Positions 32,812 through 58,135 of a DNA stretch of 64,000 bases are shown piece after piece. The number at the start of each line of letters is the position of its first letter. The first letter of the stretch is position 1. Position numbers and translations under genes: made by a program. This DNA is from Exophiala sp. HKRS030 (lineage: Eukaryota > Ascomycota > Eurotiomycetes > Chaetothyriales > Herpotrichiellaceae), in contig JAHWDD010000008.1 of the NCBI GenBank assembly GCA_023897205.1, positions 744,001 through 808,000 of the forward strand, written 5' to 3'. The notes under the pieces were generated by a model. That model had not been told where the DNA came from. It searched no databases and saw only the letters and a list, made by a program, of their open reading frames with translations.

Positions 32812-32816
32812 TGCGG
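32812..32816 (+). other. Left flank TGCGG, orphan half of a target-site duplication
   Basis: The five bases before the element. Their duplicate is not at 40407 but at 57448-57452 on the minus strand. Confidence 0.85.
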
Positions 32817-33242
32817 TGTTACGTTTCGCTCCACACAGGGTGTCACAAGACGTATGGTCTCGATAGGCGGGAAGTATAAGAGGCGAGGTCACTGAGAGCG
32901 CGGTACTTAAGCGAGTATAAGAGCGAAGTGATCACAACTAAAACGTATGGGTATGATCATGAACAAAGTTAACTACGTGGTAAAGCTATATAATGACTGT
33001 GTATATATAATCGTTTAACCTTTTTGGGCTCTCTCCGGCTTTAAGGGCTCTATAGTGAGAGCCAGGAGAGTTAACAGAGCCCGCAGCCCCCTGGGCTCTA
33101 TGGCCTCATTTCTTAGGGTTCTAAGAGTCACTTTTACTATGTGACCACACCCTTAGGCTTTCATATGTTTTAGACGTATTAACGCCAACTAACTATTATC
33201 ACAGCTTTATCTATGACCTCATAAGAGGCCTAATTTATAACA
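32817..33242 (-). repeat. 3' LTR of the Gypsy-type element
   Basis: 426 bp, TGTTAC...TAACA. Its left half (to about 33000) is nearly identical to the little-mutated solo LTR at 57.5 kb. Its right half is heavily C-to-T/G-to-A changed. Confidence 0.95.
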
Positions 33243-33256
33243 CTTTTCCTCTCCTT
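33243..33256 (-). other. Polypurine tract
   Basis: On the minus strand AAGGAGAGGAAAAG sits directly before the 3' LTR. This is the expected position of the plus-strand primer and confirms the element's orientation. Confidence 0.75.
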
Positions 33257-33499
33257 AAACTTATTTATTGTTTATAACGTATATAAGGTAAGTTAGTCCC
33301 TATTAATCGCGTGGTTCCTTCTCGCGCTTCTAACCATGGCTTATAATGTTATAGTACTATCTGTAAAAATGTCCTAACTTCTTTACCCTTTATCGTTTAA
33401 ATACCGCGAAATAAATTAAATTCCTTAGGGTTAAGTATCTAGACATAAGTTATTATTCTCATTATTATGAGTAGAACCTTATTTACTATATAATTAAGG

Positions 33500-33920
33500 G
33501 TTATATAAAGTGTAATAACTACACTGCGTTAAATGTGAAATATTGTGATAGTTATTTTTCGGATGCTGAGTTTAACAGTTTAAAGCGCCAGAAAGAGGCG
33601 CTAAAGAAATCTGTGAAGAATTAGCGGGCTAAGGTCGCTTGTCTAGCTGCTACAGTAGTATTAGTGTTTATGGCACTAGCTTTAGCTTAGGAGAAAGAAG
33701 TTAAGCTAAATAAGTGGTTAAATAAGTTAATTACTAGGTAGTTAGAGATATTAATTTAGGAAGTAAAGGCTCTAGACACTTTAGATAAGATAAAGGGGTT
33801 TACCGCTTTAGAGTCTTAAGTAGTTTTCTCCTTATCTAAGCCCTTTATATAGAATAACTTAATGGTGAATTTTAATTTTACTGGCTTTAGTGAAACTACT
33901 AAACTACACTATGTGCCTAG
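33500..33920 (+). pseudogene. Antisense Cys-motif/coiled-coil reading frame in the retroelement
   Basis: On the strand opposite gag-pol one frame reads through a decayed C-x2-(Y)-x7-C-x2-(Y) motif at 33511-33555. There follows a Lys/Arg/Leu-rich helix (FNSLKRQKEALKKSVKN, then EKEVKLNKWLNKLITR and EVKALDTLDKIKGF). The interrupting codons are nearly all TAG or TAA that could come from CAG/CAA. The two Tyr codons sit exactly where Cys would complete a C-x2-C-x7-C-x2-C cluster. A second, antisense gene carried by the element is the simplest reading. Its function is unknown. Confidence 0.5.
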
Positions 33921-33929
33921 ATAAGATAT

Positions 33930-36900
33930 TCTTCTAGTTTCTATATGTTTTCTAAATTATTATATCCTAATTACTTAGTTAGGTAAAATCGTTATTCTCT
34001 CTTAACTTTAAGGTCTAAGATATATTTCATATCCTATATTAGCTATTAGATTTCTTTATAAATTAGTATTAGTCCTAATTTAGCGTTTAATAATGCCTTT
34101 TTAAGAAGTGATTTATAAAATATTAGGTAAATATTTATTTCCTTAGATAGTTCTAATTCGAATATCACTAGTCTAAGTTTTTTCTTAATTTTATAGGGTC
34201 TAATCTTAGTATAATCTAGCTTATTAAATAGTCTTTATGTTTTAATGTTTTTTCTAAGAAGGTAGACTACCTTCCCTTCTTTAAAGTTTAGTTCCTTAGA
34301 TCTTTATTTATTTATGTTTTTAACTGTTTTTTATGATATTTTTTTAAGTTCTTATTTTAAGAGTTTATATAAAGATCATAACTTCTTAACTAAGATTGCC
34401 ACTTTTTCTGTAATCAGTTTAATATCTCTTATGTCTTTCTTAATTCTTAGGTAATATCTATAGTTCGCATAAAATGGTAAAACTCTTATGACTAAGGTAC
34501 TATTATTATAAGTGAACTATATAATAGGTAGTAGTGATACTTAGTTATTCTATTAAAAATTGATATAACATTATAAATATTGTTTTAGTGTTTAGTTTAT
34601 TCTCTTTATTTACTTATTACTTTATAGATAGAACGCTATTAATAGTTTTTAATGGACTCCTATAAAATCCATTAAAGATTACTAAAACTATGATATAAAT
34701 AGTTTATCTCGATCTAAGCGTATTTCTAATAGTATTCTATATTAACTAATAATGTTTTTATAAAGAGTGTAAACCAATTTTTCTACTATTAATAATTCTT
34801 TATATAAGATAAAATGTGCGTATTTTATTAGGATATTATTTATTATAAGTATACTATTAAAGTTTATACCTATAAGGGGCTCTTTAGACTTAGGTAACTT
34901 AGTGATAAAGTCTAGCGTAATTACGTGCCATACTTCTCCTAGTATTACTAGTGTCTAGAGTAATCTATATAGTTTATATTAAGTATACTTTACTTTGTGA
35001 TATATATCGTAATTCTTAACATAGTTTATTATGTCTTTTCTGACTCTCTTCTAGGTAAAGTCCCTCGTAACTAACTTAAGTGTTTTCTTAATACCTAGGT
35101 ATCCTACTAACTTATTATTATGTCGTTCTTTAATGATTTCTTTCTTTTATTCTTCTATTAGCTTAACTTCTATAGATATTAGTACCTAGATTTTTAGTGT
35201 TATATATATTAAGGCGCTATTTCTTTCCTTAAGTATTACCATGAGTTCTAGTTTAATGTCTTTTATATAGTCTGGTCATTAGCTAAGTATATTTACTATA
35301 GCGTTTTCTTTTCCTTAAATATAATATATCTAGAAGTTATATAGTGTAAGTATTTCTACCTATTAAACTTATTTTCTATTAAGCTCTTTTATTATTATTT
35401 AGTATAGTAAGTTCTTATAGTTAGTGTAGATCTAAATTTAATACTTAGTACCTTTAAGATATACTCTCTATTTCTTAAGATATTTAACTATAGTAAGTAG
35501 TTTCTTATTATAAATATTATAGTTTAATTCCGGCCCTATTATTTTTCTTAAGTAGTATATAATAGTATAAGTCTTACTATTTAATCTCTTTTATATGAGG
35601 TAGGCTCTAATTACTTTATTTAATGTATCTATCTTCACCTAGTATTCTAGCTTAAAGTTATATATCATAAGTACTAGCGCCATTATAATGGCTTTCTTAA
35701 GGCGATTAAATACTTCTTTACATTTTTATTTAAACTTAAATAAGATATCCTTCCTAATAAGGTTTATTAATGGCGCTATAATCTTTAAAAATCCCTTAAT
35801 AAATCTTTAGTAGTAATTAAGTAATCTTATAAAGACTTATATCTCTATAATATTCTTAAGTTCTAGCTAATCCTAAATTAGCGCTATCTTATTAGGGTTC
35901 ACTTTAATACTCTTATTAAATATAATATAACCTAAAAAGTAAATGCATTATTTATAAAATTTATATTTACTTAGTTTTATAGGTAAATCCTTTTTCTTTA
36001 GTTTATAAAGAACCTTTTAAATATATTTTATATATTCTTTATATATCTTTAAGAATATAAGTATATTATTTAAATATACTATTATAAAATTATTAAGATA
36101 TTCTTAGAGTGTATTATTAATTAATTCCTAAAAAGATACTAGCGTATTAGTTAATCTAAACAGTATAACATAATATTTATATAGTCTAAAACGGGTTTTA
36201 AAGGTAGTTATTTATTTGTGGTCTTTCTTTATCCGTACTTAGTAGTAGGTGTCCTATATATTAATTGCGATAAAGTATTTTGCTTTAAGGAGTCTATTCT
36301 ATAGTTCCTTAATTAAGGGTAATAAATACTAGTTCTTTTTTATGATTATATTAAGTAGTTAAAAATTAATATATAGTTAAAGAGATTTATCCTTTTTTAG
36401 GGCGAATAGCACTCTATATGCTATAAATAACTTAGATAGTTTAATGAAGTCTTTCTTTAAGTGAGTCTTAATGTACTCCTTAAGGAAATCTTCTTCCTTC
36501 TTAGATAGTTACTTAAGCCACTCATTATGCTTAGATACTTTTCTATCTTTAAGCGTAATTTCGTGGTTCTATGGTTAATATTCTAATAGTACTACTAACC
36601 CTTTTCTTTCTCTAAAGAGGTCTTTAAAATCCTTATATTCCTTAGATAGACTTACCTTTTTTATACTGTTTAAGGCCTTTCTTCTAGGTTATATCTATAC
36701 TACTCTCTATAAAGATACTTTAAAAGTTAATCGTTTCTTTCGCTTCCTTCTTTTATAACTATAATTTAGAAAGGACAAGATTTATTTTTTCTAGCTTATC
36801 TCTAGATTATGTTCCTAAAGTCATTTTATCTTTAGAACTATATTATACTTAGTTAGTATCATATTAATGTCAACCTTTTCATGGTGATCACTAATCTTTA

Positions 36901-39900
36901 ACTAAGTGTCCCAGATTTCTTTCTATATCCATTTATTATTGTACTCTGCTGGTGTCCTATTTACTATAAGTAATGAATATAATTATTTTTTCCTGTGTAT
37001 TTTAAATCGTACTACTACCTTTAATAATATGTAGTCTCAGTTAGCTCTATAGTTAATCATTACCTATATAGACTTATTAGCTAGTTTAGCGCTAAAGACT
37101 AATGGCGTTAAACGCTAAGTCTATATTATGTTAAATTGTCTAGCCTAAGGCTTCTTTTATTAAGGGGTCTTCTACCTTAAGAGAACTTCTCTCTATCGTT
37201 TTTTAGTATATTATTTATATCCGTATTTTCCTTTCTATAAATTCGCTAGAGAACTTCTAACGATATTTTAATGTTTATCTTTTTCGTGCTTCTCTCTTTA
37301 TACGCATATAATGCTAGCGTAAATGGGCACTATATATCTCTATATAGATTAATCTATATTATGCGTAATGTTCTTAGCCTTACTTCCAAATTAAATATAG
37401 TATAGTAGTGCTATATATTATATAGATAGTGTGGTCACTAGCATAGAATTAGCTTTCAGTATAGCGTTATAATAACATAATATGTTTTAGTTATACTTCG
37501 CATAATAAACTTAACTAGGTTATCTTCCTTATCTAGGAAATTAACCATTATAAACTCTTCTTCTTCATTTAAGTCATTATTAAGTGAATAGTGTATCTCA
37601 CTCCTATACACTTTATATATATACATTCCTTTATGCGGATATAGCTTATCTTAATATATATTAAGAGCCATTATCTTTTACCTTTAATTAGGGTTACTAT
37701 AAGGTGTGAATTATATATTTCTAGTTAGTATAGTTAACTAGTAGTGCATACTAATTATTATTACTCCTAGTGTCTTTTCCTTTTTATAGTAATGCTCTAT
37801 AATGTCTTAATTAATCTCTTATGGTGTGAGGTTTTCCTTTTCCTTAAACGGAAAGAAGTATAGTAACTTTGTGCTAGTTTAATGTGTGTGGGGTTTAAGG
37901 CCTTTACACTTAAAATATCACTATATAGGAACTTTTTATGCTTCTTTCTATTTCGTGATATGATCTAGGTAGTAGCTATTAGTTATTAACCTAGTTCCTA
38001 GTATCTATTCCTTATAATAGACCTAATTAGTGATCTTAATAACTATATAATAATAGTCATGAAATAACATAGTGTTATATAGTGAGTCAGAGTTCTTAGA
38101 GCCCTAGTCTAGTTTATTCTTTCCTTTAAACGAAAACTCGTAACGGTCTTCCCTTAGTATATTATGTGTATATACTAGTGTGGTATATATTAAGCTTTCA
38201 CACGCTATAATGAGAACTAGGTCCTCCCTAATCTTAGGGTCTCCCTATAGGTTAATTCTTCTATATACTATTATGTAATTAGTATAATAGTATTATATAC
38301 ATAGTATATTTATTTAGTACTTTGTTATTAATACTATAATATCGTTATAGTTTAATATGACTTAATATTTATTAGTGTGTAGTAATGTTATTTATTACTC
38401 TATAGTAGCTATAATTTCTAATTTCATAAGAATGAATTCTTTGTCTTCGTTATTAGGTGCCCTAGTATCTATAATCTATAGTGAAGACTCTTCGGCTTTC
38501 ATTATAGCTAATTCCTTAGGGTCTTTCTAGTTAGTGCTCTCTATCTTTTGTGCCTTATCATGATGGTTTCTACGCTTTCTTTCGTGAGGAAACTATCCTA
38601 ATCTCTCTTTATTAGAAAGGTAAATAAGGTAGTGATTATTATAGTAAGTAGTCTAGGATAAAAGTGTGTGTATAGCCTTATTATTAGCCCTATTATTAGC
38701 TTCTTTATTCTGTTCCTTTAGATTAGGAAAGGTTCTCATGGTTATAGTAATCTCTTTATCATGTTCTGATAATAGTAGTGAAGTTACTCTCTCTACCTAG
38801 GTCCCTTTAGGTATTCCCTTCTATGCTTTCTTAGTGCGGCTAGCCTTTTTAATGGTGTTCTCCTTATTTAAGGAGTTATGAAGAGTCTAATAGTATCGCT
38901 ACCTCTTATTATATAAATAGCGTACTTTATTAATACCTTTCGCGAATGTTTTCAATTGGCGCTTAAGTTTTAATACTTTTATTAGAGTGTCAACCTTTTA
39001 TTCTCTAATACTAACTATTTCTTCTATTATGTGTAGTTCTATAGGCTTTATACTGTATTCTCTAGCCCTATGTTCGGATTTTCTATAATTATAGCACAGG
39101 TTTTCTTTCTTTCGTTATTCTCACTCTTTATTGAATGGCCCCTTACGCTAAAAGCGGCCCTTTAATTATGAGAACTAGCCTTATTCCATAACATTAAGGT
39201 TTATTAAGTCACTATAAAACTAGTAGCTTAGGTAGCTACTTTTATAGTATATGCCATTAGTCTTTCCGCGGTAATCTTTACGTTTTAAGTTTAGTTTATA
39301 GAGCTAATTATTAATTTTAATGGCTTAGTTAATTAGTCCTTTATAGTTTATAGGTTTATTTAGTCCTATTTCTTTTTTTATAGCGTCTTTTAATCTAGTG
39401 TAGAAGGCTATAGTGAACGCGTTATCTTCTTAGTCTAACTTAGCCTAAAGTCACTTAAATAGCGCATAATATTAAGCTGCCGAGCCTATCTATTTAAGCT
39501 AATAGATTTATTAAGACGTGACTTATTCTTCTCTAGGGATCCTAAAGATCTATTTAATGCGATCCATAAAAATAGCGAAGTTCTTAAAGATTGTAATAAT
39601 CTTTAGGTTCTTTTATGCCTAAGGTGAGATTAAGTGGTTCATTATAATGGGTTCAAATTAATAGAAGGCTAAGCCCTTTATGTGAAGTCCTATAAATAAG
39701 ACCCTATTCTTCTAAGTAGTATACTTAGTTTAATTTAACCTAAAGGTCGCGATAAGCTAAGTAATAAATAACCTAAGCTTAGTATGGTCCTTATAGAACG
39801 AATTAACCTTGTTATTATTCTTGTTATTATTATAGCCCCCTTAAGTGATAGTGCTATAGAATGATGGGCCTAGGGTCAGGGCGCTAGAGCGGACCGACCT

Positions 39901-39945
39901 AGTTAGAGATAGTGAATAAACTGATTTAGGGTTTAAGGCGGACAT
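33930..39945 (-). pseudogene. Gag-pol remnant (RIP-mutated)
   Basis: Minus-strand reading starts at an ATG at 39945 (MSALNPKSVYSLS) into a capsid-like gag (for example YKDHTKLRLFIT). A knuckle remnant CYNYRKSEHRARE lies at 39061-39102. RT lies around 35680-36090 with KVLYKLKKKDLPIKLSKYKF, YFLGYIIFNKSIKVNPNKI and LLNYY.RFIKGF, the standard RT thumb and connection order. Stops are overwhelmingly TAA/TAG. Integrase should lie at about 34.2-35.3 kb but is too decayed to mark by eye. Left boundary approximate. Confidence 0.8.
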
Positions 39946-39980
39946 TGTGTTAAATATTTCTAATTAAGAGATAGTTAAAG

Positions 39981-40406
39981 TGTTACGTTTCGCTTTATAT
40001 AGAGTGTCATAAGATGTATGGTCTTAATAGGCAGGAAGTATAAGAGGTAAGGTCACTAAGAGCGCGGTACTTAAGTAAGTATAAGAGCGAAGTGATTATA
40101 ACTAAAACGTATAGGTATAATTATAAACGAAGTTAACTACGTGGTAAAGCTATGTAATGACCGTGTATATATAACTATTTAACCTTTTTAGGCTCTCTCT
40201 GGCTCTAAGGGCTCTGTAGTGAGAGCCAGGAGAGCTGACAGAGCCCGTAGCTCCCTGGGCTCTATGGCCTCGTTTCTCAGGGTTCTAAGAGTCACTCCTA
40301 TCACGTGACCACGCCCTTAGGCTTTCACGTGTTTCGGACGTATTAACGCCGACCGGCTATCGTTATAGCTTTATCTGCGGCCTCATAAGAGGCCTGATTC
40401 GTAACA
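39981..40406 (-). repeat. 5' LTR of the Gypsy-type element
   Basis: 426 bp, equal in length to the partner LTR. Its left half is RIP-changed (TATATAG where the partner has CACACAG). Its right half (from about 40165) keeps C/G, as in CACGTGACCACGCCC. Confidence 0.95.
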
Positions 40407-40411
40407 TTAGC
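40407..40411 (+). other. Right flank TTAGC, orphan half of a target-site duplication
   Basis: The five bases after the element. Their duplicate is at 57879-57883 on the minus strand, beside the solo LTR. Confidence 0.85.
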
Positions 40412-40491
40412 CTTACGTAGTGTGATTAGCCTTACATAGGTTAACTAGTTAATACTTATAGCTTATGATAGAATAGTTAATATAGTTAATA
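40407..40491 (+). repeat. Family-B repeat, 3' part
   Basis: TTAGCCTTACGTAGTGTGAT and what follows match the last 85 bases of the complete copy ending at 47081, slightly more mutated. It begins abruptly at the LTR, inside the repeat. Confidence 0.85.
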
Positions 40492-40926
40492 ATATCTAGG
40501 TGCTATTAGATAGGCATCCTTAGGTTGTTAATATCGTGAATTGTTTTAATGCTAAATAGAGGATAGAACGCTTCTAGGGTAAGTGCCGTCATGAGGAAAA
40601 ATGTCATAGGACAGAGTGCTAACACTGGACGCTTAAGGACAATAGTGATACTAGAATCATCATATCAATAAGTAATCATCATTAATATTACGTACACTTA
40701 CGGCGTTCCTGCTCTCTTTTTATATGGTAGGCCCGCTTCGGCAAATCGATGCGGTGAAGCTTAATCGGGGTCATCTTGTCTTGGCAAAGAATAACTCTAC
40801 AATGCTAACATTAAAGGAAGCGCTTCGCTGTGAGGCACTCTTCTGACACAGTCCCAATGAAAATCGCGGGCCTTTAACCTGATCCTCCCTTGAATAGTAC
40901 ATACGCATGGAATGAGATCTTGCAGA

Positions 40927-41150
40927 TCACAAAGACTGGAAGTGGCTCTTGAGTTTTACCCAGAGCTTGTTAAGCAGATCCCGGAAGTCTGCTAGAGTTA
41001 TAGCGTCCGTTTGGCTAGGTGCATCATCCCGTAAATTAAACTTAACGTATCTGGTAGCCCCCTTTTTTAGTTCCTGGGCATCGGTTAACGATATTCCTAC
41101 CTCAGGGATCAAAAGGACTGCACCTTCATCAAGGTGTCCACGATGTCCGG
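40927..41150 (-). pseudogene. Short coding-like remnant, family unknown
   Basis: The minus-strand frame reads HRGHLDEGAVLLIPEVGISL and continues LTDAQELKKGATRYVKFNLR to a stop at 40927. Composition and lack of bias make it look like real protein, but the frame closes upstream and I cannot place the family. It could be the last exon of a lost gene beside the inversion breakpoint. Confidence 0.3.
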
Positions 41151-43051
41151 GTTGAGGTCAGACCCGAAATGTTGGATATAAAGCTTGGCGGGGAATGGAC
41201 TCTACCACGCGAGGTTTTAGTCTACCTTTGTTTAGACTTTTTCCTCTCTGTCTGAGATGATACTTGATGTAGGCGGCACAATTTTGAAGCGTCACCCCAG
41301 CTCTACGGATAATAGTATACCAGTACCTTGCAAGTAAACCTAATGGACACAAGGAAGTAGACAGGGGTGTACCGGCACCATGATATTCATTCGCGCCTGT
41401 CGCGAGCGATAGTCTCATCACTGGCTTGCGACACTTTCCACGCCCTTCAGTTAGCATGAGAACTGTCTTCGTCGTCATAAAGTTGGTGCCACTCTTTCAC
41501 ACTCTGAGCTCACGTCGGTCTCCTCAGACGTTTCTAGACCTGAAGAGGTAGAGAATTCACGAACAATTGACCTAGAACTTAACATTCCGAAACAGAGGCA
41601 CAAGGCAGTCTATTGTAACAAGAAGAGGGCGAGAGGAAATGAGAGATGGGAAAACTTGAGGCATTGACCAGATTTAATCAGGGATAGGGTTAATAACTTG
41701 TGTTCCATCCTGTTTGAAGAGGCAGGCCTGGTACCTTGAAGTCGGAAGATGAGTCTTCTTGTAAAATATCTTTGCCCCCGGCGTATCGATACATATATTT
41801 ACTATATCTGACACGGCCGTACCTCTCCATCGCACCAACCAAATCCTTATCCCTGAAAATCAAACTCAAGGACGCAATCACTGTGAGGGTTCTAGGTAAG
41901 CGCCGGGCCCGAAGACAGAAGAGCGCACTGGTGGACTGTTGACGAGCAGATGGGGTGGGTGGACAGAGCTGTTTTAGAGAAGTGAGGCACAGACAGCAAG
42001 ATTTCTTCAGCTCTCGGCGTAGTTACCATTCGAGGATCTCACGACTCACCTAGGGGGAGGGATGTCAAAACACCGGCGGAAAGCGTGCACACCGTCCAGA
42101 CTGGTCGGACGGGAAGAGCAAAGAACGTGCTTGCAAACTTGAAACATGAGAGAATCTCGCGGTGATGTTGACCTTGTGGTCGCACATGGAGTCTGAGATC
42201 AATCGTCCTTCATCGTCCAGAACTTTAGACCAACACTCCCTTGATCATCGCAGGTCATGAAGCAGTAATCTTTGTCTACGGTCTTCGCATCCACGACATA
42301 ACTAAGGTGTCCTTTCCTTGTCTCAAATTCTATACCAAGCTCAGAAGCCTCATCGCTTGTAAAAGTGCTGTAGTAACCGGCATGGTCGTAGCCGCCGAAT
42401 GTGTTGGCGGAGAAGGCCTGTTTAGTCCAAAGTAAATGGTGGAGCTGATGGTAAGCTCAAGTGGGATGCAAGGCAAGACATTTCTGCGCCCGCCTTCGCT
42501 ACTGCTATGCTTCTATTGACGTTAGCAATGAACCCATTTGGCTGTGGAGCACAGCCGCGCAACAATCCGATTCGGGATGTTGCAAAGCCGGTGCGAGGGC
42601 TCGCTGCAATTTCGCCGATGTTACTGTTCTAAACCCGACCCCAGGTCGAAATAAACCTGATCGGCCAAGGGCCCGTAGTCACACCCAGGTCCCACCATTG
42701 GCCCAAAGATAGGTCCGGCCGACATCGGGGGAAGTCAAGGATGGGGGGACGTTGACTCTAAAACTACAACGCAATGGAGCACAGAGACTTCGAGGTTTGC
42801 GGGACCTTTACGGGCAGTGAGAACCATGTGGTCAGTCCGGATTTCCAGGCCCAAGACCAGTTACGTTGAGTATCACGGTTGTTCTAAGTTGATCAACATT
42901 GACGGGCTTGAAACTAGCCGTCACTCCTATCAACCCGCCATTCTGGCCAATAATGAAATGGTTCTCCGCCGATGGACGAGGAGGGGAACGAAGAGATGTT
43001 TACGCTAGCAACAAGGAGGGACCTGGCTAGCGCCTCTGGCCCTTATTTGAA
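41151..43051. other. Intergenic region, no secure gene
   Basis: Frames at 41158-41478 and 41690-41881 (minus) look weakly coding but join nothing recognisable. 42000-43050 shows no motif. Confidence 0.4.
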
Positions 43052-45041
43052 TCACATCACAACGGCCACATGGTCGTCCATGTACTTGCTGATGTCCCCC
43101 AAGAAGCAAGCCGCGATGATGCTCACAGCCCCGAACGCGATGCTCGTATAGTACACGTACTTGTACGCAGAAGCGTAGGCGACTTGGCCAGCACTCACGA
43201 CGATCGCGTAAGCGGTGTCATTGTTGCCGATACCAGGCAATGTCTTGAGCTCGGTGATCAACGACGAGGCCGTCAGCTCGATGGCTGCACCGATAATTTT
43301 GGGGTCAACAATGCCGAGCTCGAGTTCCATTGCGCCACCTATGTAGTGGGTGGCAGCGGGAACGAATTTATTGAGGAAGACCTAGAGGTGGTGAGGTGTT
43401 GGGTTAGCCAAAGCTGTCAAGGTGTGATCTGAGGGCAAATGAAAGGGGGAACGAGGTGTTAGGCCTACGTTGTAATAAACCGCATAGCCAATCGCGCCAC
43501 CCACGACACGGATGGCAAGCGTTAGGGCGGCGATGGTCGCAATGAGATCATCGGGACAGATAATGGTGGTGATGATGGAGGCCGGGACAACGATGCCGCC
43601 AATACCGAAGCCGGCGATGATCAAAATGATCCAGAGCACGTTGAGGTTGTCGACTCGAGCAACGGCCATGGCCCCCGTCCCTACGAAGCATCAATTAGGG
43701 TTCAGACAATAGATAGGAGCGGTGGATCAGCAAATGTACCGGCAGTCATCATTACACTCGAAATGATCATGAGCAACTTATTCTGACCACGGAAGACGGA
43801 CAAGAGCCACAGGACTACGCAAGCACCGGCAAGGATCGAGAAGCCGATGGGAATACCACGGATGCCGACGCCAATGGGATCATGACCGTAGACGTTGAAT
43901 GCTTGAGTCGGCCAAAAGAGAAGCACGGAGAAGAAGTTGGCCCCGGAAATAAAAGTAATGACCAAAGTCAGAGCCAGAATGCGCGGGTCCTGTCTCAGTC
44001 GAGATGGGAAGATCGGGTGGTTTGTCCCCTTGGTCTCCCAGATCGGGAAGGCGACAAAGAGCAGAAAGCCCCCTAGGATGAGCGGGACGAGAACGTGTGG
44101 CGACGACCACTTGTATTGGTATCCTCCCCACTGCCAGCACGAAAGGTATCAGCGCTGATGGACCCGTATACATTCGAGGGAGATGACGCGGGCTTTCTTA
44201 CCTGCAGACCCATCATGAACAATATCATGCCCGCGATGCTGAGAAGCCCACCAATGTAGTCGATCTGGCCCAAGACCTCACGTCTTGTGAGACCTTGACT
44301 GTTGGGACGAGGGGGAGGAAAGTAAAAGATGGCAGTCATGACCAGTCCAATGAGCGCCCAGACTCCGCAAAACAGGCCAATCCACCGCCAGGAGCTGTGG
44401 GATGCGATCAATTGGCCCCACAGAACAGACGGACAAAATGGAATGATGGTAAAAATCAAAACGGCGACGTATTTACCTCGCTTCGCCGTGGGCGCCATCT
44501 CAGATGTCGCTGCAAGGGCAGTCAGCTCGTTGATACCCGCCCCAATGCCCGAAATGACCATGCCGCCGATGAAGGTGTTCATGGTATGGGCCGTGCTGGC
44601 GACGATCATGCCTAGGACGAGGAAGCTGGCGCCCAGCAGGGCGACATATCTCCTCCCGATGAGATCCGACAGAGATCCGACAAAGGGGCAGACTGCGGCG
44701 AGCGCGAGGAGATTCCCAAGCACGAACCAAGTCCAGCGATCGGTGCCACCGAGGTCACCGTAGATGTAAGGTGGGACGCCGCCGAAAAGGTAGAGAGGGA
44801 TCTGAGAGCCGGTCCAGAGAAAAGCCATGGCTATGAGGGACATGAGGCGCCGCTTGGACATCTTGGGTGCGTGATCATGGTCCAGGCCATCACCGTAAGT
44901 CCGCAGTCCGTTTTTCTCATAGTAATTTGTGTGGCCAGGCACGCGTTCGTTGGTATGGATCGGCTCGACATATTCAAAGGTCTCTTCTGCCTCTGGAGGA
45001 GAGGAGGTCTCGCGAACAGGCTTAGCAGTGTTGATTGCCAT
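43052..45041 (-). CDS. MFS efflux transporter, TRI12-type
   Basis: Four exons: 44202-45041, 43740-44130, 43469-43680 and 43052-43381. The introns of 71, 59 and 87 bp have GTAAGA, GTACAT and GTAGGC donors and keep the frame; 590 residues. A hydrophilic N-terminus of about 85 residues is followed by about 14 hydrophobic segments. VGSLSDLIGRRYVALLGAS is the MFS loop-2/3 signature, and WRWIGLFCGVWALIG, GQIDYIGGLLSIAGM and IFPSRLRQDPRILALTLVI are typical of the TRI12/DHA-type fungal family, which exports mycotoxins or related compounds across the plasma membrane. The substrate cannot be told here: no biosynthetic gene lies nearby. It lies inside the inferred inversion, near its left end. Confidence 0.9.
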
Positions 45042-46732: not shown

Positions 46733-47081
46733 TGATAGAGACTTAGAAGGGTATAGCATAAGTATTAAGATAACTAGGTTATATTGTAATAGGGAAGAGT
46801 ATAGCATAGTAGGCCTTTATTAATGAATGACTAGCTAAGTGATAGCTTAATAAGAACTTAGAGAGCTTAAGGAGTGTTAGCTCATAAAAGGGAGGTAAAG
46901 ACCTCCTTATATAAGCGTAATTTGTAAAGGAGGTCTATATAGAAGGCTTTAGAATAGAATAAACTAGTGATTATAAATTAATAGTCTTATTATACTTAGC
47001 CTTACGCAGTGTGATTAGCCTTACGCAGGTTAACTAGTTAATACTTATAACTTTGTGATAGAATAGCTAACATAGTCAACA
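46733..47081 (+). repeat. Family-B repeat, most complete copy
   Basis: About 350 bp ending ATAGTCAACA. It contains CTTTATTAATGAATGACTAG, GACCTCCTTATATAAG, and the pair TTAGCCTTACGCAGTGTGAT / TTAGCCTTACGCAGG. The CA terminus and AT-mutated state suggest a solo LTR of another element, but the left end is not clear. Confidence 0.7.
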
Positions 47082-48251
47082 TTAACAAGATACTAGTCTA
47101 GTTATTTTGTTATCTTTACGGTTTCTCTTGACCAGAAATCATTCATTTGAAATGGCAACATGGTGAGACTTATTTTCCCTTCGTTTCTGAACCTGAAAGC
47201 AGGGAGTTCGACTGCTGATCCTCTTCGAGAGCGAGTCCGTGGCTTGGTCGATTCTCTTGCAGAAGAGCAAAGGTCAAAGGGAATGAAACAGATGTGATTC
47301 TCCGACCGATTTGCACCATAGACTGGCCACCTCAGGGAGTTCCTGCTTGAGGAAATGGAGTACTTGTGTATCTTTGGTATGTTCATCATTCATCCCTTTC
47401 AGCTGCATCCTTGGGAGACTTTGTAAAGGCAACATAATTCATCCTCTTGGTTATGTAGCTTGGGTTCTCGCGCCGGCGAACAGAAGTGATGTTCAGAGGT
47501 TGTCGAGTGAAGCGTGAAGTGAGACATTGAAGGAAGAATAGGGCAGAGGCAGAAAGGGATGGAGGGAGAGAGGAGAAGTGCACGGGCAGGAAGGCATAGA
47601 AAGGAAGAACAGAAAAGAACAGAAAGAGGCGACAGGATGAAAAGGTGAGTGGAGTGGGGCCTGGCATCCCGCACTGACTACTTTTCGTTCTGCCTCGCCC
47701 TGACTCGTGCTGCAAAGGCCTCTGACGTACGTACTGGACAGTCGTGGGCCCCCTAGGTGCCAGCATTTAACCCTACAAGCCAGCTCCCTCTCGACCTCGC
47801 CTTAATTCGCGCATGCGCCTCTATCATACGTACCTATTACAGAGAGTTCTCCCGCACAGGATTCCTGGTGCCTGCCGGTACATCTCCTCGACGCCTTCTT
47901 CTGAAGCCAACCTGTCGCCACGAGCAAAATCCCGTGCTCCGCTGACTTCCGATGGTAGAAATGGAGAATCATCGAATACTACTACTGCATGATCGGCTCC
48001 TAAATGGCGTAATGATCAGCACCACGGTCTAGGCACCTGTACCCTGTACTTCTGTAGGAAACCCCGCAGCACACCAGCCCACAGACTGGGACCTTCGCCA
48101 TTTCCCGCGCACAGTTTTAGCGTGGATATCCAACTCATTGGACTACCAAACTGCAAGATGGGCGTTGGGTTTCTCCTAGTGTCCTGTTTGTTCTCGACGG
48201 CAACTTTCTACCACTGCCAAGGCTAGGCATCCAGCATTGTTTCTTCAAATT
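47082..48251. other. Intergenic region, putative ABC transporter promoter
   Basis: No gene is supported. Purine-rich (GGAGGGAGAGAGGAG-like) around 47560-47640, then pyrimidine-rich toward the ABC gene. Confidence 0.4.
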
Positions 48252-51200
48252 ATGAAGCAGGACTTCCCACAATTCTCAGTCGGACCGGCACAAGTAACAA
48301 TGTCGCAGCTCTCGAACAGCTCCGACCTCAGCTTTGGGCCGGCGTATGTTGGCCCCGATAGGAAGTTCGATTTCACCTTACTCTTCGAGGATACCATTTT
48401 GACCATAGTCCCATCGACGTTGTTCCTTGCTGCAGCCATAGCACGAGCAGCATGGCTTTTCAACAGTCCAAACAAGGTCGTCACGTCCTTGAGTCGGTCC
48501 GCAAAGCTAGTCAGTGAACCTGGCCCTCCACTTTAAGCTCATTAACAAATACAGGTATTGCTCTCAGCATTTGCTATGATACAGCTGGCCGTTCTACTCA
48601 TCCGTACAACCAACTTGCAGGTGGCCACCAAAGCATCGGTCCCTGCCGCCACCCTTGACTTCGTTGTGGCATGTGTGCTCTTCATCTTATCGTGCTTCGA
48701 CCACTCCCGATCAATTACCCCATCGCCCATCATAGGGCTCTACCTTCTCTTTTCCGTGGCATTTGACGCTGTCCGACTGCGAACCTGGTACCTAATCAGC
48801 GGCCATGCAGCAAAAGGAATCGCCCACTTACTTACACTCTCCCTGATCACCAAACTTGGCGTTTTGGTCACTGAAGCCATCGAGAAGAGGGCAATCCTCC
48901 TCGAACCCTACCGAGATCTTCCTCCAGAGCAGACCAGTGGTATCTACAACAAATCAGTATTCTGGTGGGTGAATCCTCTACTCAAGCTGGGCTTCGATAC
49001 CACACTACGAACCGAGGATCTCTTCACGCTTGATGAGGCGCTGTCTTCTGCGAGACTTCACCGAAGATTCCAGCTGAAATGGTCGGAAAAGCGAGCGTAT
49101 TCCAGCAACAGTCTCATGTACATGTCTGCTAGTGTGTTGAAGTGGGAGCTCTTCTGGTCTGCCATACCACGATTGCTGCTCTCCGCGACAAGATTCTCTC
49201 AGCCGTTTTTGATTCAAACAACCATCCGTTACGTGAGCGACAGAACAGATCAACCAGCATCTTATGGTTGGGGACTAGCAGCCGCATTCTTCTTGTCTTA
49301 CTTCGCGGTGGCCATATTCACTGCAGCATATCAGCACCTAGCCAATCGCTACTGTACCCAGCTACGTGGCGGCCTGCTGACGCTCCTTTACGACAAGACC
49401 ATCAATCTCAGCCTGACTGCGGTCGATCGGGAAGCCGCAATGACTCTGATGTCCGCTGACACCAACCAGATGGTCGATGTCTTGCCGTTGCTTCACGATA
49501 CATGGTGTGGAGTTCTTGATACCGCCGTTGCTATGTTCATCCTGTACTACTACCTTGGCTCCACGTGTTATGCACCGGCAATCGTCTACGTCATCCAGCT
49601 TGGAAGCACAGTCGGACTTGCCCGTGTCATTGCGCCGTTGCAGAAGAAATGGCTTGATGCAGTACAAAAGCGCGTGTCGTTCACATCAGCACTGCTGAAC
49701 TCGATACGAAATGTCAAATTGCTTGGACTTGGGGCAGTGGTTGAGAATCGTACACATGCCTTACGACTGGCTGAGATTGCTATTTGCAGAGCCTATCGCT
49801 TGGCAGACACAGGTAGAATCGTTGTTCAGAACGGAGCAAGCATATACGCTCCCTTTGCTACTTTTCTTGTTTATTACATCAAGTCGCTCCAATCTGGAGC
49901 CTCCCTGGACATTCCTACAGCCTTTGGAGTTCTGACTATTCTTCGAACCATGGAGGGGCCACTTAATCTTGTGATATTTGCGTCAGTCAGGCTTACTTCA
50001 TCGCTATCCTGTTTCCAGCGTATTCAAGAATACCTTCTCTCCGACTCGCGCAATGACAATCGTTTGTCTCTGCAAGATGTTTACGACTCGGAGGAATACT
50101 GGCAGCCACAGAGTTACTCAGATGCCATTTCACTCAGACGCATGAGTGTGTCCCGAAGCCCAGCGGACGATGCCATTGTCTTGAAAAATTGTTCGTTTGG
50201 TTGGGGGAGGGGCAGTGAGCCAGTCGTCAAGGACATCAACCTATCACTAAGCGTTGGATCCTTTACAATGATCATTGGTCCCGTCGGCTGTGGCAAGTCT
50301 ACTCTTGTCAAAGGTATTCTCAGTGAAACACCACTTTCGCGTGGATTCGTCTATGTCAACAACAATGCCATCTCATTTGCAGACCAAGAGGCCTGGATTC
50401 AGAATGGTACAGTTAGAGATAATATTTGCGGAGCAAGCCAATTATCTGCCGACGCGCTCTGGTACGATGAAGTCATTGCTTGCTGCGGACTGACTGAAGA
50501 TATTCAAAACTTCCCACGTGGCGACGGGACTATCGTCGGCTCTAAAGGACTCTCGCTGAGTGGTGGCCAAAAAGCTCGCTTGGCGCTTGCTCGTGCTGTC
50601 TATGCTAAAGCAGAAACTCTTATCCTTGACGATGTCTTTTCAGGCCTCGACAACGAGACCGAGGAGCTAATATTTCGCAGACTTCTTGCTCACAATGGGC
50701 CGCTGAGGCGATTGAAGACAACAGTGATCCTTGCCACACATGCCATCAGGCGTCTACCCTACGCAGATATGATAATTTCGCTGGGCTCTGATGGCCGGGT
50801 GTCCGAAATTGGCAACTACCTCCAGCTCTCAATAAGTGGTGGGTACGTGCATAGTCTTAATGTGAATGTTAAGCAAGAGCAGCAAGCGGATGACGATACC
50901 CAACACACGCCATCTCGGAAGAAAGCTCACAAAGTGGAGGTCGATCTGGTGGCTGGTGATTCACGCGATGACTTGCTCAGACGCACCGGAGACTGGAGTA
51001 CCTGGAAGCACTGGTTTAAATCTTGTGGATATCTCTCCAGTGCTCTCAGCGTAACCTGGGGTTTCATTTGGATCGTCGCTGTTCAGATGCCGGGTATTTT
51101 GGTCAGAGTCTACTCCTCGAACAATACTTTGGTTGCTGGCGCTGCAGCAAGAACATTCATAATCCTTTTCGGTATGATGGTCATCGTCGCTTCGGGTTCG

Positions 51201-52745
51201 GTAATCCTTCTCGTCTGGCAGATTCTTCTGGATATGCAACCACGAAGCTCGACTGCTCTTCATCTTAACCTGTTGCAGACGACTCTTAATGCGCCACTGT
51301 CTTTCTTTACAAAGACAGATATCGGCTCCATTACGAATCGTTTCAGTCAAGATCTCAATCTTGTCGATATGGAGGTTCCCTTCTCTTGGGCGGATTTTGT
51401 ACTCAGTTTCGTTGCGGCCGTGACCGGCATCGGTCTAATGGTCGCTTCTGGCTCTGGATACTTCGCCACGACCGTCCCCGTTCTTCTCGGGGTGATGTAC
51501 ACTATACAAAAATACTACCTTCGCACGAGTCGACAAATGCGTCTCCTGGACATCGAAGAGAAAGCACCCCTATACACTCAGTTTGGCGAGACAGCGTCAG
51601 GCTTGGCAACGATTCGTGCCTTCGGCTGGGCTGACAAGTTCACAGAGAAGAATATCGAGCTCCTCGACCAGAGCCAGCGTCCCTTTTACCTCCTTCTGTG
51701 CATCCAGCGATGGCTCACTCTCGTCCTGGACTTTGTCGTCACCGCTCTCGTCACCACTCTAATGATCGTTGTAGTCGCGACCCGGGACTCAATCGACCCA
51801 GCCATGGTTGGCGTTGGCCTGCTCTCAGCCGTCGGCCTCAGCCAGTCCCTCACCAACGTGATTCGCACCTGGACGATGATGGAGACGTCTATCGGTGCTA
51901 TAGGCAGGATCAGGGAGTACACGAAATCCACCCCATCCGAACACAAAGCCATCGAATGCGACGACCCACGCCCATCATGGCCAGAGAACGGCGCTGTGGC
52001 TTTCAAAGACTTTGGTGCTAGCTACTCCGTCGAGTCCGACTTGGTTCTCAACAATATCGACCTTGCCATCGCGTCCGAAGAGAAGGTCGGCATTTGCGGT
52101 CGCTCGGGTAGCGGCAAGTCTTCTGCCCTGGCATCACTGTTTCACATGCTCGAATACCGTAGTGGCAACATCATGATCGACGACGTGGACATCGCGCATA
52201 TTCCCCGTGAGACGTTGCGTGGGCGTATCAATGTCATACCGCAGGAACCCTGGTGGATTACCACAGAGTCCGTCCGGTTCAATATGGACCCTTGGAGCTC
52301 CATCCCACATACTGCAACAAAAGGCGGGGCCTCGCTACCCTCAGCCGACCGTGACGAAGCCTTTATCTCCGCCCTGGCCCTCTGCAACGTCTGGCCGGCC
52401 ATCCAAGCTAAGGGCGGACTAGACGCAACCATGGCGCCAGACTTCTTGTCTCATGGCCAGCGACAACTGTTCTGCCTGGCACGAGCAATGCTGCGGCAGA
52501 GTAGGATTATAGTGTTGGACGAATGCAGTGCCAGTGTGGATGTGCGAACTGATGAGCTGATGCAGAAGATTATCCGGAGGCATTTTCAGGCGTGTACGAT
52601 CATTGCCGTGGCGCATCGACTCAATACCATCGCGGACTTTGATCGCGTGTGCGTATTGGGGCAGGGGAAGGTGATTGAGTTGGGAAGTCCTGGGGCATTG
52701 AGGAAGGTTCAGCAAGGGAGGTGGCGGGAGTTGTTGGAGTTGTAG
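48252..52745 (+). CDS. ABC-C (MRP-type) full transporter
   Basis: Exons 48252-48509 and 48555-52745 flank a 45-bp intron (GTCAGT to TACAG); about 1482 residues. The order is a hydrophobic TMD0-like N-terminus, TMD1, NBD1, TMD2, NBD2. NBD1 has Walker A GPVGCGKST (about residue 661), signature LSGGQKARLALARA (754) and Walker B LILDDVFSGLD with Asp instead of the catalytic Glu, as is usual in ABC-C NBD1. NBD2 has GRSGSGKSS (1268), LSHGQRQLFCLARA (1384) and VLDECSASVD with Glu present. Members pump conjugates or drugs at the plasma membrane or vacuole. The ATG at 48300 is an alternative start. The gene is intact and has the highest G+C among its neighbours inside the inversion. Confidence 0.94.
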
Positions 52746-53262
52746 GGAACAGGTGGATGGTCATGGCTCGACCGGTACGGATGTGGAAAGTTTCGAAGCC
52801 TGAAATTGATAATGGTGTATGATAGTCAGTGGGTTCCAAAAATTGGGCAGTGCTACTGAAGTTCAGGAAAACTAATTGCTGTGGCGATGATGCTCACAAA
52901 AATTATTCTCATTGTACTTTGACGAGCTTAATATCACTACTTGAATACGTGTTACCCCTGAGTTGCACAGCGGGTATTAAACGACCAAATTCCTATATCA
53001 AGCCTGTTAAAGTTTGAACATCCTAGCCTTTCCTGAAGATGGATTCGATTTCATGGTGGCAATGCATGGCGCCAAACTTAGTTCGCTCCCAACTCCCAGC
53101 TTACGGTGTTCGGGTCCCGTATTTCTTAATTGGTTTCACCAATCTAGGGTAGACTTAGGCACGAACGCATTGCTATTCAGGGAACGATGAAGTCTGGAAA
53201 CCGGAAAATGTGGACAGTTAAAACTCGGCAGTTAGGGAAAGGGGACATCGATTGGGCTTACT
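52746..53262. other. Convergent intergenic region
   Basis: Between the 3' ends of the ABC-C and GH32 genes. No gene is seen. Confidence 0.5.
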
Positions 53263-54952
53263 CTAAGCTTGGTAATCGGTTATATTCCCTGTCACAATCC
53301 CGCTGGCGTCTTCCAATGACGCCCAAGCGCTATTCAAGCCATACACCGCCGCATTCACTCTTACTCCTGGATTTAAACCGCTTGAGGTGATCTCTATGGT
53401 GTCAAGCGCCTGCTCAGGGAAGAATGAGACGGTGGCGGAAGATTCCCCGCCGTTTATAAAAACTTCTAGAATGCTCCGATCGATTACTCCCTCAACACTC
53501 CAGCTGAGTGAAGAGGCCGAAGGGTTATATGGGCAGCTTGTTGAAAATTTGTCAGTGAAGAATGGGTTGTCAAACCCCTTCACATTACCCCTGTCAATGA
53601 AGAAGGCGCTATCTGGGGCAAGAAAGTAACCTGCGCGCAACGATTCGCCTGAGCGGGATGACCGAAAGGTGAAGTTTGCGGTGCCTGTGATGTTGACGAC
53701 AGGTATGTTGGTAATGTTGATTTGGAAGTAGAGGGCACCGGATGAAACAGTAGAATAAGAAACATCGACGGAACCATTGCCCATGCTCTTATCAATGAGT
53801 GCTGTGGCGTCAGTCACAGCCGACAGATCATACGGCGCGGATACCAGATCATAACCCACTCGGGTGATATTCTTCAAATAGTTGACTCGTGGAAGCGACA
53901 TGGATGAACGCCAGCCTTCTAACGGACCAGTGGGGACAACTTGCGAGTACTGCCAGTTGCTCGTCCAGGCAAGTGATATTTGGTTTTGGTCGCCGGGGAT
54001 ACCGTAGAAGAACTGGCCCGCATAATTGTCTTTCCCAAAATCGCTGATTCGAGCTGCGCCATCAACAGGAGTGAAGACAGTTCCATTGAAAGAGCCTGGG
54101 AAATACTGTGTTATGGAGCCACCGATAGGAGCGCCGGGGTTGATGCTAACTGCGAGCACATACATGGGTTCTGTTTGGCCTTCCATTGGTATCTCCACCA
54201 GATTGGGACATTCGTATTGGTCGCCTAGGAGGCCATGATGGGAAAAATTGGAGACGTGTTGCCATTCTTTGAGATTGTCGGATGTGAAGAACCCTATCGT
54301 GAGAGCCTGGGCATATGATACAACCATTACCCACTGCTGGGTAGGTGCATACCAGCTAACTTTGGGATCTCGGAACTGGCTCGAGTTGTCGCTGAGGACC
54401 GGATTTCCGGGATAAGATTGAAAAGTGTACCCCCCGTCGGTGGAGTACGACAAGGCCTGAGTTTGCGAGGTGGGAGTGTTAATGGTGTAGATGGCAACCA
54501 CACCATTGTTCTGGTGCGGGAAGAAACCAGAAGTATTGTTCACGTCGACTATGGCCGAGCCCGAATAAATGTTGGAGTTTTCATTAGGAGGAAATATAGC
54601 AATCGGTTGGTTGATCCAGTGATATAGGTCTTGAGACGTGGCGTGGCCCCAGTGTTGGTTACCCGCGGTCGTGGAAGTCGGATTGTCTATGCCAGTTAGT
54701 CTGCAATTTCTCGTCGAGCACCGACTTACATTGATAGTATAGGTGATAGGTTCCATTTGCATCCACGAACATGCCATTGGGGTCATTCATAAAGTCTTTG
54801 GGAGGAGAGAAATGGACTTGTGGCCGGAGAGCTCCGCTGTAATTCCCAGGGATTGGAACTCCAGTAGGGACAGAAGGCTCTGCATATTTGGACTGCTGAG
54901 ATAGGGCCTGAGGAACAAAGGCAGCGCAGGCGATGATAATAGAGCGGATCAT
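53263..54952 (-). CDS. Secreted GH32 beta-fructofuranosidase (invertase/inulinase family)
   Basis: Exons 54730-54952 and 53263-54686 flank a 43-bp intron (GTAAGT, ACTAAC, CATAG), joining [21 protein letters not shown]; 548 residues. A signal peptide ([18 protein letters not shown]) is followed by the GH32 catalytic set: nucleophile Asp57 in MNDPNG, Asp181 in FRDPK (transition-state stabiliser) and acid/base Glu233 in YECPNL. The C-terminal beta-sandwich ends with [20 protein letters not shown], the usual module. There are many N-x-S/T sites. It should hydrolyse sucrose or fructans outside the cell. I cannot separate invertase from exo-inulinase by eye. It converges on the ABC-C gene. Confidence 0.95.
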
Positions 54953-56400
54953 GATGGATGGTAATAGGAATGAGTCTCGACGATTCTTTCTGAACTCTTG
55001 CGCTCTTCTTCAGAGGGGCTGTAGAATTAAAGTAGATATGATCCTCTTTCTGGCGTTGTAATAGAAGTTTCTTTTTGTTCGGGGTTATCACCGCCCTGGA
55101 GGGAAGACTGTTCTTGCAATAGGGGTGGGTTTTGTATTTGCTTATGGGCAGTTGAAGCATGAAGTGAATTGTTACTCGTGTGGGTAATATTACACCAGAA
55201 ATAGTGCTGTAGGCTGCAAATAGTTAAATACGGCTTAAAAAGCCGCCTGTCCGCACTTAGTTTGGTCGGTTCCGCGAATCACATTCAAAAGTATGACGTA
55301 GTACCTGAGATCCTCCGGTGATACGCATTCTTTTGCTGCCAATACTAAGTCTCTACAAAGGGAGTCGAACCATCCCCTTCTGGAGAGTCTCAAGGCACGC
55401 GGGACAACTTGGTAAATAGCTCGAATCGCGGAGCCTGCTCCGTGTCGTTGCCAACTTCGCCAGGAGAACAAACTTATTTTGCCGAGGTTGCTCTTCTTAA
55501 CTGTTTATGCGACTTTTCGACGAACGAGAAATCGTAATTTGAATTTTGAGCACCACAAAATTCTATTAGCTTTCTCTCCATTATAGGACAATGGGGACCC
55601 CAGTAAAGGGCGTCGATAGAAGCTCTAGCGTCGGCTATCTTGACCAATAGCCGACACCGTAGCTAGGATCAACTTGAGAATGAATCTCTCGGACCCTTAA
55701 GCTCGGCACGGCGTGGAATTTTTAGGCCGACGATTTCACCGAGGTCGTCTCACAATCACGTTTAGTTTTGCTCGAGCAGTGTAGGTAGACCCTAGCTACT
55801 ATTGAAGCCGACGCGGAGATCCTGGTAGGGTGGGGTGGGTAGCGTGGGTTTCCATGCCGAACAATTTGAGCAGCTAATGCTCACGCGCTCTCAGAGTAGG
55901 ATGGTGAGGCTTCTCATGCCAGTGTCTAGTGCACGGTGTGTGAAGCTTCAACGCGCTATAGCGACTCAACTTGTCGGATGTAGAGTGATTGCAAGCTTGC
56001 TTTGTGGATAAGAGCCAATATTTCGCGCCAGTCGTTAGCCTTGGCTGTTACCAGTGGACGAGTAAGTATTAGTATCTCATAGCCTATCCGTCGAAAGGGC
56101 TTTAAGACTTGGTACCGTGTTGCTGACTTGAACTTGCGCAGTCACCATCGGGCTCTTCCTTGCCACAAGCGTTCTCAATTCCGCAAAGGACCGCAACGAT
56201 ACTGGATCTTACTGGATTCCTATTGCCGTCCAGTCTGCGTGGGCTTACGAGCTATTAAGCCTTGCGATTGTGTGAGAGTCAAAGACGAGGCCTTTCTAGT
56301 GGGTCCAGTTATAGATGTCAGTAATGACGGTTACCATCGTCCGGCTTATCTTGTGCGTCTGCTAATCCTTCTTACGTCGCTTATCTATATGTAACATGCG
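54953..56400. other. Intergenic region upstream of the invertase
   Basis: Putative promoter near 54953-55200. A 78-residue minus-strand frame at 55235-55471 (SPEDLRYYVILLNVIRGTDQ) looks protein-like, but its family is unknown to me and it is not called. No other gene is seen. Confidence 0.4.
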
Positions 56401-56887
56401 GTCTACATCATCTAAAAGTTTCTTTATCTTGGTTTAATGGTAAATATTAGGCTTAAGGCCTAAATCTTTACTCTTTTCTTTCTCATTAGCTAGTCTCTTT
56501 AATCTTATATTATACTTATAATTAAAGAATAATAATCTTAATAACTAAATATCTTTTAATTAGTCATAATAGAGCTTCTTCTAATGTTACTTTTTTTTCT
56601 TAATCGCATTTAAACTTGAAAATATTAGTAGACTTTTCTTAGATTATAATATTATTAAAAATTTAATGATTATTAGTGTTATCTTTAGGATCTATATTAG
56701 CCCTAATTAATTAGTTTTTATAAAGAAATCTTCACTTTAGTTTAGGATTTTTTAGTTATAAAGATAATATTTTAAATCTCACTTTAAAAGATAACTTTAT
56801 ATCTAATTAAAGATATTAATATAAAGAGATATATTATTAATGAATAAGAGTATTATTATCTAATATTTATACTTTATATCAAAAGAA
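56401..56887. repeat. AT-rich RIP-like tract
   Basis: Dense TTAA/TAAT words and stops in all frames, merging into the family-B copy at 56888. Confidence 0.6.
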
Positions 56888-57183
56888 CCAGGTCATATCG
56901 TAATAGGGAAGAGTATAGCGTAATAGACCTTTATTAATGAGTGACTAGCTAAGTGATAGCTAAATAAGGACTTAAAGAGCTTAAGGAGTGAAAAGCCCAT
57001 GAAGGGGGGTAAAGACCTCCTTATATAGACATAAAGGAGAGCCTATATAGAAGGCTTTAGAACAGAATAGACTATTGATTATAAATTAATAGTCTTACCA
57101 TACTCAGCCTTGCGCAGTGTGCTCAGCCTTACGCGGGTCAACTGGTTAACACTTTGAACTTAGAATAGTTAATATAGTCAACA
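56888..57183 (+). repeat. Family-B repeat, second copy
   Basis: Matches 46783-47081 along its length (CAGGTCATATCGTAATAGGG ... CAGCCTTGCGCAGTGTG ... ATAGTCAACA). It is less RIP-changed near its end. Confidence 0.8.
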
Positions 57184-57447
57184 CTTTACTAAGTATTCTT
57201 ATGTCCGCTTTTTATTCGAACTTACTATATAACATTAAAAAATGTTTTCTTAACTGATATAAAGAGTCATTAAGACGTTAACATTATGTAAAGCATTCTA
57301 GATGGATCTCGTACGGATAGAACAAAAGTTTCACTAGGTTTAATAAGAGACTACTGTAACAAGTGAGCATTAGCTTATAGCAGAAGAAATGATCTTTACG
57401 CGCGAAGTAGCCCCTGCGTGATATATCACAGACTTAGCTCCCCGCTC

Positions 57448-57452
57448 CCGCA
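57448..57452 (-). other. Swapped target-site duplication half (TGCGG on minus strand)
   Basis: CCGCA on the plus strand, directly before the solo LTR; reverse complement of the bases before 32817. Confidence 0.85.
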
Positions 57453-57878
57453 TGTTACGAATTAGGCCTCTTATGAGGCCGCAGACAAAGCTGTGACGAC
57501 AGCCGGTCGGCGTTAATACGTCCGAAACACGTGAAAGCCTAAGGGCGTGGTCACATGGTAGGAGTGACTCTCAGAACCCTGAGAAATAAGGCCATAGAGC
57601 CTAGGGGGCTACGGGCTCTGTCAGCTCTCCTGGCTCTCACTACAGAGCCCTTAGAGCCGGAGAGAGCCTAAAAAGGTTGAACAGTTATATATATACAGTT
57701 ATTATATAGCTTTACCACGTAGTTAACTTCGTTCACGATCATACCCATACGTTTTAGTTGTGATCACTTCGCTCTTGTACTCGCTTAAGTACCGCGCTCT
57801 CAGTGACCTCGCCTCTTATACTTCCCGCCTATCGAGACCATACGTCTTGTGACACCCTGTGTGGAGCGAAATGTAACA
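57453..57878 (+). repeat. Solo LTR of the Gypsy-type family
   Basis: 426 bp, TGTTACGAATTAGG...ATGTAACA, the same length as both LTRs of the full element and in the opposite orientation. It is the least mutated of the three copies. Its flanks do not match each other (CCGCA left, GCTAA right). Confidence 0.93.
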
Positions 57879-57883
57879 GCTAA
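57879..57883 (-). other. Swapped target-site duplication half (TTAGC on minus strand)
   Basis: GCTAA on the plus strand, directly after the solo LTR; reverse complement of 40407-40411. Confidence 0.85.
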
Positions 57884-58135
57884 GCACGATAAGACTCTTA
57901 ATTTATAATTATTAGTTTATTCTATTCTAAAGCCTTCTATATAGGCCTCTCTTTACGCCTATATAAGGAGGTCATTATTCCCTTTATGAGTTAACACTTC
58001 TTAAGCTCTTTAAGTTCTTATTAAGCTATCACTTAGCTAGTTATTCATTAATAAAGGCCTATTACACTATGCTCTTTCACTATTATAATATAACCTAATT
58101 CTCTTAATACTTATTAACGATATTAACTAAATCTA
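57879..58135 (-). repeat. Family-B repeat, 5' part
   Basis: The reverse complement matches 46775-47003, stopping exactly where the LTR was inserted (the TTAGC before CTTACGC). Its missing end is at 40407-40491. Confidence 0.85.

Follow-up and report, generated by a model that had tools for sequence, protein, structure and literature searches.

Among the closest described counterparts of the arrangement reported here is the Galileo inversion 2z3 of Drosophila buzzatii, for which exchanged target duplications at the breakpoints and chimeric copies of the element have been reported (PMC2775673). In Mycosphaerella fijiensis, whose genome shows RIP, insertion sequences that differ between the 5' and 3' sides were recorded for 125 LTR elements, beside 515 that were analysed, and the authors infer ectopic recombination; the same report argues that diverged elements are poor targets for such recombination (PMC3562529). 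Six inversions are among the 19 large rearrangements described in Verticillium dahliae, and eight of the 12 rearrangements that were reconstructed in detail occurred over highly similar transposable elements (PMC4971763). Within the literature and terms searched, exact phrases for exchanged or swapped target duplications were found in two papers, both on Drosophila (one of them PMC3355041), which is no proof of absence.

The locus described here lies in a window of 64,000 nucleotides (the whole stretch of DNA that was analysed, C8:744001-808000), which contains a full-length LTR retrotransposon and, some 17 kb further on, a solo LTR in the opposite orientation (Table 1). A sequence-only reading of this window had proposed that the intervening segment was turned round by homologous recombination between inverted LTRs, having noticed that each insertion is flanked by two different 5-mers which are matched at the other insertion. 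Its coordinates and 5-mers proved exact: the full element stands between TGCGG on the left and TTAGC on the right, and on the matching strand the solo LTR is preceded by TTAGC and followed by TGCGG. The proposal itself is supported by the evidence assembled below, and a probability of roughly 0.92 is assigned to the view that positions 40407-57452 were flipped when one of the full element's LTRs and an opposite LTR, which now stands alone, underwent a single homologous crossover.

According to this reading, two LTR insertions in opposite orientation would already have been in place before the flip. A single, reciprocal and intrachromosomal crossover, presumably between the inverted LTR and one of those belonging to the full element, would then have reversed the segment and exchanged the 5-bp target duplications of the two copies, and the present order would be the derived one. 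Restoring the other order mends both duplications, as had been noted earlier, and it also rejoins a dispersed repeat of ~309 bp, an observation that the sequence-only reading had left unused.

Table 1. Features of the locus, in window positions; strands are those of the window as written.
Feature	Position	Strand	Remarks
TGCGG, left half of target duplication X	32812-32816	+	
Full-length LTR retrotransposon, Gypsy-like reverse transcriptase	32817-40406	-	interior heavily RIP-mutated, GC 27.5%
3' LTR (in coding terms)	32817-33242	-	426 bp
Polypurine tract adjoining 3' LTR	33243-33256	-	
RVT_1 reverse transcriptase remnant	35921-36358 (C8:779921-780358)	-	9 in-frame stops; 37.1 bits, cut-off 29.6
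5' LTR (in coding terms)	39981-40406	-	426 bp
TTAGC, half of target duplication Y, at present adjoining full element	40407-40411	+	
One half of ~309-bp repeat holding site Y	40407-40489	+	outer end approximate
Segment probably inverted	40407-57452		17,046 bp; contains MFS, ABC transporter and GH32 invertase-like frames
MFS (TRI12-like efflux) transporter open frame	44073-45200	-	part of gene
Intact copy of dispersed repeat	46758-47095	+	related empty site for Y
ABC transporter open frame	48546-52745	+	1399 aa
Glycoside hydrolase 32 (invertase-like) open frame	53263-54786	-	
Second intact copy of dispersed repeat in window	56877-57183	+	related empty site for Y
TGCGG (written CCGCA), other half of X	57448-57452	-	
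Solo LTR	57453-57878	+	426 bp; inverted relative to LTRs of full element
TTAGC (written GCTAA), other half of Y	57879-57883	-	
Other half of ~309-bp repeat holding site Y	57879-58109	-	outer end approximate
Sugar transporter frames	59640-61239	+	outside inversion, ~4.9 kb from GH32 frame

The flanks of 18 insertions of this LTR group (the two in the window and 16 elsewhere, forming 153 pairs) were compared; six further places lacking two readable ends (C2:1822, C8:3312053, C13:404602, C16:242723, C6:15984 and C10:1490104) were left out of the survey. Fourteen of the 16 insertions outside the window have matching flanks (eight exactly and six with one transition) and two have mismatched flanks; in this tally the end of a diverged LTR was taken to be whichever TAAYA-type end gave the best-matching flanks, so that matches are favoured there. 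For the full elements at C10:1491080-1498972 and C13:6747-14141, the pairing of outer ends was made by eye, and the insertion at C14:439662 has two candidate ends, with one or two transitions. The two window insertions match crosswise only, at all five bases in both directions, and theirs is the sole reciprocal exchange among the 153 pairs.

It might be supposed that the crosswise match arose by chance, or that two ordinary insertions have lost their duplications. Mismatched flanks are also present at C3:7332486 (where TAATG would stand on either side if the LTR had lost its first TG) and at C25:21284, so mismatched flanks alone are not diagnostic. However, matches of both 5-mers are expected with a probability of ~1e-6 for one named pair, or ~1.5e-4 over 153 pairs, in agreement with the earlier judgement that chance is a very unlikely origin; moreover, such an account would leave the split dispersed repeat unexplained and is contradicted by the paralogous empty sites described below, and its probability is close to negligible. 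Redealing the 18 right-hand flanks gave both window matches in 50 of 20,000 rounds, this being a low-power control in which ~1 in 306 is expected for two named flanks. Among the mismatched insertions, the related solo LTR at C25:21284-21491 is flanked by CTATA and GTCCA and possibly represents one side of another rearrangement; no exchange partner for it was found among the 18 whose flanks were compared.

Exchanged duplications and inverted copies would likewise be produced by an aberrant joint integration, in which two cDNAs each join one end at site X (TGCGG) and one at site Y (TTAGC), and the segment is inverted during insertion itself and not by a crossover. A comparable alternative, based on aberrant transposition, has been discussed for Galileo (PMC2775673). 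Nevertheless, the present locus would call for two cross-joined integrations at the same time, each site being cut in staggered fashion, a course of events that is less simple than one crossover and is regarded as extremely improbable.

The case for inversion by crossover rests on the two restored junctions as well as on the exchanged 5-mers. At site Y, a single dispersed repeat of ~309 bp is split between the right flank of the full element and the outer flank of the solo LTR, its two halves now lying 17 kb apart and in opposite orientation. These halves are joined in both intact copies of the repeat within the window, and in the copy at 46758-47095 their overlap consists of the five duplication bases. 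Among the loci fetched, 17 of the 22 other matching sequences (a count that leaves out the window's own two halves) extend through the restored Y junction for 25 bases or more on both sides, with no LTR, and the remaining five are partial pieces, one of which (on C14) crosses the junction by 24 bases. Sixteen of the 17 junction-crossing copies were aligned, and no LTR is present at the junction; the copy at C7:5073076 has ~19 extra bases beside it.

The repeat begins near TTAAGAG and ends near GTTAA, and its variable-length flanking duplications, as judged by eye, suggest that it is a non-autonomous element, SINE-like or of another type. For at least five copies, a match to the LTR group is found within ~1 kb (C7:5073076, C7:2119509, C12:885503, C13:403438 and C14:438403). 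The dispersed repeats were also considered as the cause of the inversion, and were rejected in this role: the restored copy at site Y shares its orientation with both intact copies, and the breakpoints coincide with the ends of the LTRs.

At site X, where a joined TGCGG empty site had been predicted, one paralogue does cross the restored junction, but by 35 bp only and with a gap. This sequence (C7:5097107-5097247) is 85-86% identical to the left flank as far as the restored junction and then, after a gap of 7 bp at the junction itself, continues for 35 bp into the flank that now stands beside the solo LTR. The extension has a score of 34, a value reached by none of 2000 mononucleotide shuffles (the highest of which scored 30) and by four of 8022 tiles; in a finer rerun it was reached, besides the query's own sequence, at the C7 place only. 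When a joined query of 238 bp was used for site X, the match stopped 3 bp beyond the junction. Another sequence, C2:7322491-7322706 (74%), resembles the right flank of X alone, starting ~35 bp beyond the junction and unattached to the left flank. As a single diverged paralogue, the support for site X is clearly weaker than that for site Y. A search with 917 bp of the left flank for a second haplotype in the old order yielded, apart from the query's own locus, just three fragments of repeats.

Taken together, the reciprocal 5-mers and the paralogues that run through the restored junctions (17 for site Y and one for site X) indicate that positions 40407-57452 were most likely flipped by a crossover between inverted LTRs. 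Since sites X and Y are each contiguous in the restored order, the flip would have come after insertion of the LTRs, and the present order is thus most readily taken as derived.

An error of assembly, by which the segment was misoriented between inverted repeats, is considered very improbable. Both sites are indeed inverted repeats, and the right end of C8 has a TTAGGG array with CCCTAA after it, a sign of fold-back resembling a long-read artefact. However, fold-back yields an inverted duplication and not a clean inversion; the repeats at the two sites are just 426 bp long and differ by ~10%; and the genome, of 59.8 Mb, is contained in 50 contigs, with lengths of up to 8.2 Mb among those viewed.

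The full element resembles retrotransposons of the Gypsy type. Its LTR group displays the marks of the Gypsy type (a TG start, a CA end, 5-bp target duplications and a polypurine tract), and a match to RVT_1 stands above the cut-off within the element, whereas none of the 16 RVT_2 (Copia) matches falls inside it. The integrase domain PF00665 has three matches genome-wide, none of them in the full element, whose interior is heavily mutated. As had been stated earlier, the LTRs of the element are inverted relative to the solo LTR; the plus orientation then given to the element, however, describes the strand of the LTR as written, and the coding strand is the minus strand. It is from the position of the RVT_1 remnant and the polypurine tract on that strand that the LTR at 39981-40406 is identified as the 5' LTR, and that at 32817-33242 as the 3' LTR. 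The three LTRs of the window are pairwise 86, 91 and 90% identical over 426 bp, with no gaps, and the solo LTR is 90.6% identical to the 3' LTR and 89.9% identical to the 5' LTR.

Two histories of the same inversion lead to an identical final sequence: the full element might have been inserted at X, with a crossover in its 5' LTR, or at Y, with a crossover in its 3' LTR. In the second history, the solo LTR would have occupied TGCGG and the full element TTAGC, and the interior of the element would have been flipped along with the segment; as a variant, two full elements would have been present at the start, one of them being later reduced to a solo LTR. The history that places the crossover in the 3' LTR is given slightly less than even odds. 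The longest run identical to the solo LTR does measure 94 bp in the 3' LTR, versus 54 bp in the 5' LTR, but run length tracks the density of RIP, the outer third of the 3' LTR having few changes and the inner third of the 5' LTR many. Attempts to map the crossover by the longest identical runs, or by the density of RIP in each third, were rejected on the ground that both measures follow RIP and not ancestry. Because the 12 LTR copies that were compared differ by RIP-type transitions only, the crossover point cannot be mapped and the LTR of the full element that recombined cannot be identified. Chimeric LTRs would be expected from such a crossover, and the copies carry no marker of origin by which they would show.

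These 12 copies (L042-L050 and the three LTRs of the window, forming 66 pairs) show no transversions in any pair, all differences being transitions. Mutated sites amount to 159 of 624 at CpA, 107 of 744 at CpG, 53 of 672 at CpC and 12 of 744 at CpT, and the changes run from C:G to T:A only, on both strands and with a preference for CpA, which is the pattern of RIP. The restriction to transitions and the preference for CpA suggest a recent burst of the LTR group that was followed by RIP. Within the LTRs of the window, RIP-type changes increase from the outer to the inner third (from 3 to 29 in the 3' LTR, and from 9 to 23 in the 5' LTR), and this rise is steeper than in the main family's three other full elements.

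In view of the lack of transversions in 12 copies of 426 bp, the insertions are likely to be young, having had little time for ordinary mutation. The inversion would have to be younger than both insertions, and it may still be polymorphic. A more elaborate scenario, offered tentatively and rated as rather unlikely in its entirety, is that the flip fell in the brief period after the burst of retrotransposition and before RIP had inactivated it, while the LTRs were nearly identical; that RIP later sealed the inversion by driving apart the repeats responsible for it; that the inversion is still segregating among isolates; and that it brought an invertase-like gene next to a sugar transporter.

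Twenty open frames were scanned with Pfam, and none extends across either insertion site. By coordinates, and with the LTR excluded, the distance between the GH32 frame and the sugar transporter would have decreased from ~14.6 kb before the flip to its present value, the two now being divergent. Between the left flank and the sugar transporter, the predicted ancestral order is GH32, ABC, MFS, and the present one MFS, ABC, GH32. In protein searches, the nearest named match of the GH32 frame is Cladophialophora immunda PV07_01434 (85%), the top named match of the sugar transporter is Exophiala oligosperma LTS17_008509 (99%), and that of the MFS frame is Knufia peltigerae H2204_001280 (100% over 75% of the query). 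These top named matches belong to three different genomes and disagree on the genus; the Knufia and Exophiala lineages are both Chaetothyriales, the order to which the proteins point, and the fungus is likely related to the black yeasts. Exophiala oligosperma is absent from the GH32 matches listed (the best 120 of 4459). That a neighbouring GH32 gene and sugar transporter have their best named relatives in different genera is perhaps a matter of gene gain and loss, or perhaps of patchy naming.

What is preserved at this locus, on the reading of an inversion by crossover, is a nearly complete and self-contained record left by ectopic recombination between LTRs in a RIP fungus, consisting of swapped duplications, a split repeat and paralogous empty sites. 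The last of these give the ancestral order with no need of a second species, and the likely youth of the inversion makes the timing of recombination relative to RIP testable by the sampling of isolates.

Exchanged duplications are in themselves a published signature; what sets the present locus apart is how completely the record is kept within a single genome, which makes this a very clean case. As in Galileo 2z3, homologous mobile elements in opposite orientation are found at both breakpoints, the duplications are reciprocally exchanged, and ectopic recombination is the inferred cause; but for 2z3 the single target copies were seen in sequenced non-inverted chromosomes, whereas here paralogues elsewhere in the one genome supply the empty sites (PMC2775673). 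Galileo, furthermore, is a DNA transposon with 7-bp duplications, and both of its copies are reported to be chimeric, while the present locus involves LTRs with 5-bp duplications and a crossover that is hidden by RIP (PMC2775673). The large rearrangements of V. dahliae come from a comparison of strains with long reads, and the words 'target site' do not occur in the available text of that account (PMC4971763). The likeness to M. fijiensis lies in fungal LTR elements whose flanks differ, in a genome with RIP; the account of that genome, as far as its available text extends, presents no reciprocal partner pair, restored junction or empty-site check (PMC3562529).
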